Assembly (NCBI RefSeq): GCF_021023085.1
Contig: NZ_PGCK01000010.1
Span: 1-64,000 of the forward strand
Source of the DNA: Methanooceanicella nereidis
Lineage (GTDB): Archaea > Halobacteriota > Methanocellia > Methanocellales > Methanocellaceae
Reading direction: 5' to 3'
DNA: 64,000 nt
The notes beneath the pieces were generated by a model. The model was not told where the DNA came from, made no database searches, and saw only the letters and a program-made list of their open reading frames with translations. This document shows, in pieces, positions 28,255 through 29,976 of the stretch (positions are counted from its first letter, which is position 1; every line of letters begins with the position of its first letter). The position numbers and the translations under genes were made by a program.

Positions 28255-28304
28255 GAACTGTTTTTATAGAAACTAAGTAGACCATGTCATATTTAGTCGT
28301 CTTA

Positions 28305-28590
28305 TCAACCACAAAGCGCACGAAGTCGAATAAGGAACACTAATTTGTTAACCACAAAGCGCACGAAGGCGAACAAGGAACACAAAACTGTCAACCACAA
28401 AGCGCACAAAGGCGAACAAGGAACACAAAGGACTCTTTTAGAAGATGGCAAATACTTAAAACAAATTTGTGGTCCTTGTTCGCCTTCGTGCGCTTCGTGG
28501 TTAACAAATTTGTGGTCCTTGTTCGCCTTCGTGCGCTTCGTGGTGAAAAATAGTAGGCCTTAGAAGCCTTCGTGGTAATAATAATACTCA
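28305..28590. repeat. SR repeat cluster, three direct and two inverted units
   Basis: Units of about 34 bases (AACCACAAAGCGCACGAAGG followed by CGAACAAGGAACAC) start at 28307, 28350 and 28394. Inverted units start at 28466 and 28509. Spacing is 43-44 bases. The whole could fold into one long hairpin between convergent genes. The right border reads GGTGAAAAATAGTAGGCC, as in other SR copies. Spacers of only about 10 bases rule out a CRISPR array. Confidence 0.9.
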
Positions 28591-28613: not shown

Positions 28614-29090
28614 TCAGCGTAGGGGGGGTACGTCTGACTTTTCTGCGATAGTTAATTGTGATCCTTCGTCAATTTCGTCGAGAATACGATATTCCCGCGA
28701 TACTCTGTTACCGCGCCTTTCGAGGAACCCTTCACTGTGAAGGCGTGAAAGGTATGTTGAAACTGTGCTGAGCTTTATCTCTTCCCCGTATTGTCTCCCA
28801 TAACGCTCTTTCACATCGATAGTGTTAAACCATCTGCTGCGGTACTCAAATTTTAAAAATAACTTGAGCCGTTCCTTGATTGTAAGCTTATCCTTAGAAA
28901 GGTCGGCGATATCCTTTGACATCACTGATGGCCCGGGAGCCGGTGTTGACTGAGCCTCAAGGCTCTCTTTGATAGACCGTATAACTTTTGCTAATACATC
29001 GGAACCGAAGTCCGTGTTAGATCCTGAGATGGTAAAATCCTTAACCTTGCCGCTATTTTCATCCAGACTAAATTTAATTTCCATCGGCAT
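28614..29090 (-). CDS. Winged-helix-like DNA-binding protein, orphan
   Basis: The frame is open to 29138, but its first 16 codons consist of the GGATGGATTGG motif array, so I take ATG 29090 (MPMEIKFS; ATG 29084 also possible). The first 60 residues resemble a small alpha/beta unit (IKFSLDENSGKVKDFTISGS). Residues 80-140 look like a winged helix (IKERLKLFLKFEYRSRWFN, then STVSTYLSRLHSEGFLERRG and EYRILDEI). No family is recognised. The seven motifs in its leader could be its own binding sites, which would make it autoregulated; this is inference. Confidence 0.65.
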   Translation of the reverse strand: MPMEIKFSLDENSGKVKDFTISGSNTDFGSDVLAKVIRSIKESLEAQSTPAPGPSVMSKDIADLSKDKLTIKERLKLFLKFEYRSRWFNTIDVKERYGRQYGEEIKLSTVSTYLSRLHSEGFLERRGNRVSREYRILDEIDEGSQLTIAEKSDVPPLR

Positions 29091-29420
29091 CCATCCCTTA
29101 ACTCCAATCCAATCCATCCCCGTTTTTAAGTTTTTCATACATGGACAGCCCTTGCGGACCGCCAGCGCGGGTTCATTGCCGCGATATCGTCCAATCCATC
29201 CCCTTTTTAATTGCCGTTCCTTATGATAGCGACATCCATCCCCATAGTTGCCGTCATCTCGTTTTTTCGTTTTTAAAAATCGTTTTTATTATCCAATCCA
29301 TCCCTTTTTGCCGTTTAGATGATCGTAAGCCACCCGGAAGGGCAGCACGATGTTTTTGCCAATCCAATCCATCCTTTGTCCATTGCCGCTTTTCGGTCAT
29401 GATGAACCCATCCATCCCCA
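29088..29420 (-). promoter_or_regulatory. Array of seven GGATGG/GGATGGATTGG motifs
   Basis: Read on the minus strand, a core GGGATGGATTGG or its shorter form GGGATGG occurs near 29091, 29110-29120, 29191-29202, 29233-29243, 29291-29303, 29361-29374 and 29409-29419. Four copies keep the GATTGG extension, and two of them double it. Spacings vary from about 24 to 80 bases. Several copies are preceded by an A-run (AAAAACGGGG or AAAAAGGG). The array ends in the start region of the HTH gene. It looks like a cluster of operator sites. Confidence 0.7.
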
Positions 29421-29976
29421 TAGACAGGTATTATCGTCGTTATCCAGCTTTCTGTTCACAATCCGAACATTCAGCTGTGAATTACTGCCGCAATTGACAA
29501 GTGAATTGTAGTATCTCTTAATATTTAAGCCTTTTGGAGATTTTAACAATTTTTATCTGTATTTAGCACTTAAACACAGATTAACACAATATATTACACA
29601 ATATATGTAAAATTTTCAAGTATTTAATTGTTTACTATTTCACTAATATTTTTTATTAGGATAATAATTAGCAATATTACGCCATTTTTCTAAAAAATAG
29701 CGGTAAATATACATCCGCATCATAATCCATTTCAATTTTTTATCCTAAAATCAAATTCAATGTAAAATATGTATTATTCATAACATAAAAAAGGCCAGCT
29801 CAAAACAGATTCACAATTATTCAAAATAATGTGAACCATAGTGAATGAGAAAAATGCCCGGAAATAAAAAAGACGTTAACACTCTGTGTTTTTAAGATAA
29901 TGGTAAAATAGGAAATAAATTTGTTAGTAAAAGAGTGAAATCTTAGAGTGAAATCTTATACACATCAGGCCCGATA
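29421..29976. other. AT-rich intergenic stretch
   Basis: This very AT-rich stretch contains no open frame with a ribosome binding site, no SR repeat and no strong hairpin. It would hold the promoter of the HTH gene and the 3' end of the DRTGG gene. Confidence 0.5.

Follow-up and report, generated by a model that had tools for sequence, protein, structure and literature searches.

The array of short direct repeats in front of a winged helix-turn-helix (HTH) gene of Methanooceanicella nereidis is very probably not a protein operator but a set of sites, within the 5′ leader of the mRNA, at which a trans-encoded antisense small RNA (sRNA) pairs with this transcript. This assignment is based on the comparison of genome sequences, in which the repeated sites, a hairpin complementary to them, the co-variation of these loci, and a strand bias in the promoter elements and T-runs are all observed. 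The coordinates refer to the window, that is, the entire stretch of 64,000 nucleotides that was analyzed.

Repeat array upstream of the HTH gene

On the minus strand, the exact word GGATGG is found eight times between positions 29091 and 29417, in seven separate places (the copies at 29408 and 29412 overlap). All eight copies have the same orientation and are irregularly spaced, and the last of these sites (29097 to 29089) covers part of the start codon (ATG at 29090 to 29088) of the HTH gene. This count confirms the preliminary description of the locus, which listed seven same-sense, irregularly spaced copies ending at that start codon, and its remark that the upstream extension of the reading frame is made of the same motifs holds for the in-frame segment from 29091 to 29138. 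The 64-kb window contains 40 GGATGG words on both strands, close to the shuffle mean of 35.09, and ∼0.2 copies would be expected per 330 bases. The repeat unit, correctly recognized as including GGATGG, had been drawn too short, and the second repeated word, (A/G)CGGCA, which alternates with GGATGG in the leader, had been missed. The genome-wide motif search that had been suggested as a check showed that the motif is not frequent: the long form, the 11-mer GGATGGATTGG, has only five exact copies in the 3,193,629 bases of the genome, four of them in the array and the fifth in the loop of an intergenic hairpin on another contig (C1), outside the window.

Upstream mini-ORFs starting from GGGGATG were considered and rejected, as their lengths and frames, compared by eye, differ between species. 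Just downstream of the HTH gene (28302 to 28574), there is a 43-nt repeat of the AACCACAAAGCGCACGAAGGCGAACAAGGAACACAAA type, with three copies in direct and two in inverted orientation, which form an inverted repeat with arms of ∼85 nt.

The HTH gene and its product

The target gene (28614 to 29090, minus strand) was delineated from its open reading frame, homologues, alignment, and structural model. It consists of 158 codons and a stop codon and encodes a winged-HTH protein that starts with M-P-M-E-I-K; a second ATG is found at 29084 to 29082. Homologues are encoded in 32 of the 60 relatives and, according to a profile search, in 140 of the 392 genomes of the phylum; just 4 of those 140 have a second copy. 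The gene is thus not the orphan that it had been supposed to be. The alignment shows conserved residues in the recognition part (LSTVSTYLSRM...RRGNR..REY). In the structural model, confidence is high for the winged helix alone (pLDDT of ∼90 to 95, compared with ∼50 to 67 for the N-terminal part). No match above the threshold was found for this protein in Pfam, NCBIfam, or PDB sequences, and the fold search returned weak winged-helix matches (RosR, Fur, MecI, and PadR), none of them at E ≤ 0.001. This protein is a widespread, unstudied archaeal regulator. Its representatives from Methanosarcinaceae (L073, L074, L076, and L081) have gained a long Q/P-rich linker between the N-terminal part and the winged helix, and the respective genes are found near uvrB and a gene for an AAA ATPase with a proteasomal ATPase domain.

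The array precedes the orthologous gene in all three other genomes of the Methanocella family, so that the comparison of leaders in relatives, also suggested earlier, finds it conserved together with the HTH gene in 4/4 genomes; the number of copies varies between species. Genomes labelled as Methanocellales, and some others, carry a single GGGGATGGG(N)(N)(A/G)C(C/T), or a slight variant of it, right before the start codon. In the 11 named leader loci of Methanosarcinaceae, the word GAGGGGA is found in hairpin loops, two of them in 10 loci and one in L130. The pattern CTGAGGGGATRNATGG is present in 40 of the 41 Methanosarcinaceae genomes and is found only before the HTH gene, except for one extra place each in G023 and G250. 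No such motif was seen before the HTH homologues in family f6 (L029 and L031 to L033), Methanothrix, or Bathyarchaeota.

The putative partner hairpin in the Methanocella family

The fifth copy of the 11-mer and its counterparts in the three related genomes (G001, G002, and G003) are all located within one and the same intergenic hairpin. In M. nereidis, this hairpin is found on the plus strand of contig C1 (approximately positions 193,187 to 193,262), with the partner locus and the HTH target (C10) thus being on different contigs, and consists of an 8- to 9-bp stem (GAGCGGGT/ACCCGCTC) and a loop of ∼45 nt. All four genomes share, almost unchanged, a block of ∼110 nt that runs from the promoter-like CAGCAAAGTATTTATTATA, located ∼40 nt ahead of the stem, through to the end of this stem, while the flanks diverge. 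When the loop is read from the CAGCAAAGTATTTATTATA side, its CAAUCCAAUCCAUCCCC part is antisense to the leader sequence GGGGAUGGAUUGGAUUG over 17 bp and AAUUGCCGUU is antisense to AACGGCAAUU. The second arm of the loop, AAUUGCCGUUUUU, is complementary to the AAAAACGGCAAUU sites of the leader, which alternate with the GGGGAUGGAUUGGAUUG sites. The loop thus holds both TTGCCGTTTTT and CAATCCAATCCATCCCC, antisense to the two repeated leader words, which explains why the leader contains two words. The order of the words is reversed: on the motif strand, the hairpin has B followed by A, and most leader units have A followed by B. Even the variable part of the loop (GAATTGCC, GATTTGCC, or GAAATGCC) is matched by the leader, by GGCAATT in G000, GGCAAAT in G001, and GGCATT in G002; in G003, this part is matched only partly.

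The Methanocella hairpin is followed by a weak T-run only, and a conserved gene of unknown function starts ∼60 to 170 nt downstream on the same strand. Given the weak T-run and this distance, the hairpin could belong to the leader of that gene, so the Methanocella RNA may be either a free sRNA or a leader part of the downstream gene. An Alba-family gene adjoins the sRNA locus in 4/4 genomes of the family (L305:7910-8185 and its neighbours).

Predicted promoter, leader, and target sites

The HTH gene is preceded by a TATA-like element, CTTAAATATT (29520 to 29529, minus strand), whose place is taken by CTTATATAAT in L007 and L008 and by CTTATATACT in L009. With transcription expected to start ∼26 nt past this element, the predicted 5′ leader of the HTH mRNA, as judged from this sequence and its relatives, spans ∼400 nt (29091 to 29498, minus strand; leader index i corresponds to window position 29520-i). 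The sRNA loop is predicted to form ungapped helices (energies in kcal/mol) with seven B sites of this leader, all on the minus strand: B1, GGGGATGGAT (29410 to 29419; -22.1); B2, GGATGGATTGGATTG (29360 to 29374; -28.3); B3, GGGATGGATTGGAT (29291 to 29304; -28.5); B4, again GGGGATGGAT (29234 to 29243; -22.1); B5, AGGGGATGGATTGGA (29190 to 29204; -32.8); B6, GGGGATGGATTGGATTG (29105 to 29121; 17 bp and -34.8, the best in the leader); and B7, GGGATGGAT, which overlaps the start codon (29089 to 29097; -18.8). Second-arm sites, also on the minus strand, are predicted for A1, AAAAGCGGCAAT (29382 to 29393; -18.4 with the loop part ATTGCCGTTTTT); A2, AAACGGCAA (29308 to 29316; -16.2); A3, GACGGCAA (29248 to 29255; -15.5); A4, AGGAACGGCAATT (29209 to 29221; -20.9); and the weak A5, GCGGCAAT (29175 to 29182; -14.4). 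The predicted unpaired probability of the leader sites in G000 is not high, ranging from 0.21 to 0.69 compared with 0.45 overall, and such average accessibility suggests that binding may depend on an RNA chaperone or take place co-transcriptionally.

Analogous hairpins in other lineages

Hairpins with similar properties are found well beyond the Methanocella family, and the pairing seems to have persisted in several families of methane-linked archaea. In 20 genomes of other families, the word GGGATGGGNNRCC is found before the HTH gene in most cases and, again in most, at one further intergenic place. In 17 of these 20 more distant genomes, the second site, GGYNNCCCATCCCC, is located in a hairpin loop whose sequence differs from that in Methanocella and whose opposite strand is antisense to the HTH mRNA; no partner hairpin was found in the remaining three (G019, G026, and G081). 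The 17 sequences show double-sided changes at five of the seven stem pairs. The GGGATGGGNNRCC word presumably resembles the loop E region of 5S rRNA. The possibility that the second genomic site is a 5S gene was rejected, as 5S genes are located elsewhere and the scanned second sites have no Rfam match.

In Methanosarcinaceae, 41/41 genomes have a conserved hairpin whose AACCATTCATCCCCTC sequence is antisense to the leader loops CTGAGGGGATGAATGGTT. Its loop sequence, ACCATTCATCCCCTCAAA, has one exact match away from the leader in 36 of these genomes and a match with one or two mismatches in the remaining five (G200, G390, G220, G023, and G250); the same search in the four Methanocella-family genomes produced a single two-mismatch match, without a hairpin. 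Almost all tested ACCATTCATCCCCTCAAA matches (26 of 27, L422 being the one below) exceeded, in pairing between the arms, the 95th percentile of 224 control positions, and double-sided changes are seen at 4 of the 10 stem pairs in 33 sequences. For both groups of hairpins, the stems were predicted on the same alignments that were used for covariation.

A second hairpin, with the loop GATCCCCTCAGAT, is present in 19/19 Methanolobus-like (g38) genomes and in 0/14 others. This loop is also antisense to the HTH leader loops (L302, L282, L304, and L345 to L362), and three genomes have diverged extra copies of it. This hairpin was rejected as a general partner in Methanosarcinaceae because of its restriction to g38 and is regarded as a second, lineage-specific one. 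Most other ATCCCCTCAGA matches are not within such hairpins. An extra hairpin in L442 (G005:C1, ∼344,960), which contains ACCATTCATCCCCTCAAT in the loop and precedes a T-run, could be an sRNA paralogue. In Rfam scans at the gathering score, neither the hairpin loci nor the leader loci matched any family, other than tRNAs elsewhere in the hairpin loci and one tRNA elsewhere in a leader locus.

Likely transcribed strand

The strand from which the partner hairpin is likely transcribed can be judged from its flanks. A TATA-like element is found upstream, at roughly the distance expected of a promoter, on the antisense strand at 14 of the 17 loci from other lineages, compared with 0/17 on the other strand, and at 41/41 versus 4/41 loci in Methanosarcinaceae. 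Likewise, the T-runs past the hairpin are longer on the antisense strand, with mean lengths of 5.8 versus 3.2 at the 17 loci and 4.4 versus 2.7 in Methanosarcinaceae. Promoter elements and T-runs both assign the putative partner transcript to the CCAUCCCC strand and not to the GGAUGG strand. Judging by its sequence, the partner locus has the properties expected of an sRNA gene: it is intergenic, is located away from its target, and appears to have its own promoter.

This strand assignment bears on two protein-based explanations. The preliminary description had suggested an autoregulatory operator array or a multi-site loading region; a regulatory role linked to the HTH gene is borne out by the conservation of the array in 4/4 genomes, but the complementary hairpin favours RNA target sites over a protein operator. 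Binding of the HTH protein, or another factor, to the GGGATGGATTGG duplex, next to its own gene as well as at the second locus, with the sites drifting together with the protein, would agree with the position of a one-orientation motif next to a gene for a DNA-binding protein and with its presence at one further intergenic place per genome, and co-variation between the two loci would also be expected if a single evolving protein reads both. Such an operator is nevertheless improbable, as it leaves the strand bias unexplained, as well as the location of the second-locus motif in the loop of an inverted repeat with compensatory changes in its arms and that of the Methanosarcinaceae leader copies, which are also in hairpin loops; the reversed word order suits free RNA arms and would not be favoured by a fixed protein site. 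Further, an operator would be expected on or upstream of the promoter, but all seven B sites are located ∼80 to 410 nt downstream of the transcription start, with the reservations that this start is itself a prediction and that some repressors bind downstream. In many relatives, TTCACA/TGTGAA half-sites cluster around the TATA box of the HTH gene (29440 to 29500 and 29800 to 29860; loci L010 to L022), which makes them a better candidate operator of the HTH protein than GGATGG.

Even less probable are sites for an RNA-binding protein of the CsrA kind, which acts on GGA motifs, in both RNAs and without any RNA-RNA pairing. GGA-rich words are indeed found in hairpin loops and in single-stranded parts of a leader, but the partner would be transcribed from the strand that does not carry GGAUGG, and a protein of this kind would not account for the complementarity, which reaches 17 to 18 bp plus the second arm.

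Specificity and co-variation of the predicted loop-leader pairing

Since the partner loci were found through a motif search, their raw complementarity to the leader is partly circular, and only the hairpin context, the extensions, the second arm, the co-variation, and the promoters are independent of that search; by chance, ∼1.5 second copies of an 11-mer would be expected in 3.2 Mb. In the four Methanocella-family genomes, the loop and the leader form 11, 7, 6, and 10 helices at E ≤ -16, counts that were reached by 0/500 dinucleotide shuffles of each leader (means of 0.96, 0.77, 0.41, and 0.95). At the laxer E ≤ -12, two genomes fall inside the shuffle range (15 and 16 observed, with shuffle maxima of 18 and 19), while one shuffle equalled the best G003 helix. 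Whole-molecule duplex folding is uninformative, as it joins distant helices, and ungapped helices were used instead; among 300 shuffles, 78 were as good as the native sequence in G143, 70 in G134, 30 in G344 (these three with the second Methanolobus hairpin), and 17 in G030.

In the other lineages, the leader and the loop are complementary at three free positions in 38 of 45 cells, compared with a permutation mean of 31.07 and 0/20,000 permutations reaching 38; this comparison covered 15 of the 17 genomes, leaving out G028 and G082, from which no leader was extracted, and its shuffle does not remove relatedness. G030 fails at these three positions and has a longer upstream match, TTTGGAGGGGATGGG. 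Within family f12, the pairing is G opposite C in G051, A opposite U in G018, G036, and G043, and G opposite U in G076. The change in G051 compared with G018, G036, and G043 appears to be the most telling case of co-variation. The wobble-substitution counts were equal (12 versus 12). Taken together, the comparison points to both leader complementarity beyond chance and a conserved secondary structure.

These numbers leave little room for a chance origin of the array or for a mobile repeat that expanded in the leader. The irregular spacing and the different copy numbers in different species could be seen as signs of such an origin, but it is hardly credible for a motif that has been kept with the gene across genera and families, is unique in the genome, and, at E ≤ -16, forms more helices with the loop than any of the 500 shuffles.

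Proposed mechanism

In the favoured scenario, a trans-encoded RNA of ∼75 nt would be produced from the C1 hairpin and would pair with the HTH mRNA in the cell, its CAAUCCAAUCCAUCCCC arm with the GGGGAUGGAUUGGAUUG sites and its AAUUGCCGUUUUU arm with the AAAAACGGCAAUU sites. Its binding would block translation initiation and, presumably in response to some controlling signal, repress the HTH gene. A translation block appears likeliest because the most widely shared site either coincides with the ribosome-binding region and the start codon or immediately precedes them. Repression of translation is also favoured by the example of sRNA162, which masks the ribosome-binding region in the same group of archaea (PMC3510493). 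The extra upstream sites in Methanocella could add sensitivity or cooperativity or titrate the sRNA. Activation, mRNA stabilisation, and a sponge role are possible alternatives to repression.

The last of these, in which the leader array soaks up an sRNA that regulates other mRNAs and the HTH mRNA serves as a decoy, overlaps with the explanation preferred here. Seven B and five A sites in one leader are far more than simple repression requires. Still, a sponge seems unlikely: the other lineages have just a single site ahead of the start codon or two sites within the leader, which better fits a target, and there is no other perfect 11-mer target in the genome.

As for the history of the proposed sRNA-mRNA pair, it can be tentatively suggested, at somewhat less than even likelihood, that it is a dedicated pair inherited from the common ancestor of Methanocellales and Methanosarcinales, in which the loop and the leader have co-evolved and the sRNA gene has been relocated, and that the 12-site, two-word array of Methanocella arose by multiplication of the target site and counts or titrates the sRNA before the regulator switches.

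Comparison with known archaeal systems

The closest parallel is sRNA162 of Methanosarcina mazei, an intergenic RNA of 191 nt that pairs via a 39-nt single-stranded linker and targets the adjacent gene MM2441 for an ArsR-family regulator (PMC3510493). Both are archaeal intergenic sRNAs for which the mRNA of a transcription factor is the pairing partner (here, by prediction), with masking of its ribosome-binding site, as proposed here for the HTH mRNA. However, the partner described here is a short hairpin that would pair through its loop with several sites in a distant target of another family, and it has analogues across several families, while the sRNA162 homologues reported by Jager et al. 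2012 (PMC3510493) are confined to two close Methanosarcina relatives. Two other M. mazei RNAs, sRNA154, with an anti-ribosome-binding-site sequence in its loop, and sRNA41, which masks ribosome-binding sites, are similarly trans-encoded but have several metabolic targets (nif, glnA, and ACDS), with no target array reported in the relevant part of the review (PMC5867862). EarA, the euryarchaeal archaellum regulator, resembles the present case in that short sites are repeated for an archaeal regulator, with four of them, 6 bp each, ahead of the fla promoter; unlike the array described here, these are DNA sites upstream of the BRE/TATA of another operon, with no hairpin or antisense partner described for them (PMC5512572, PMC10665913). 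The dRNA-seq study of Methanolobus psychrophilus reports 195 sRNAs, including nine that are conserved and induced by cold, and the present hairpin may be among them (PMC5378194).

Among the openly accessible papers listed by full-text searches, none names this sRNA-HTH pair. Trans-encoded sRNAs are already known in archaea; it is the array and the depth of conservation that are unusual. Targets are known for only a small number of archaeal sRNAs, and the best studied of these, sRNA162, was described from close relatives alone (PMC3510493). The pair proposed here, recognizable from genome sequences in several archaeal families and with its two RNAs co-varying, makes it possible to test directly whether sRNA control is deeply conserved in Archaea. 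A multi-copy target is unusual, and its dose response is measurable. The pair also gives a handle on an unstudied and widespread winged-HTH regulator.
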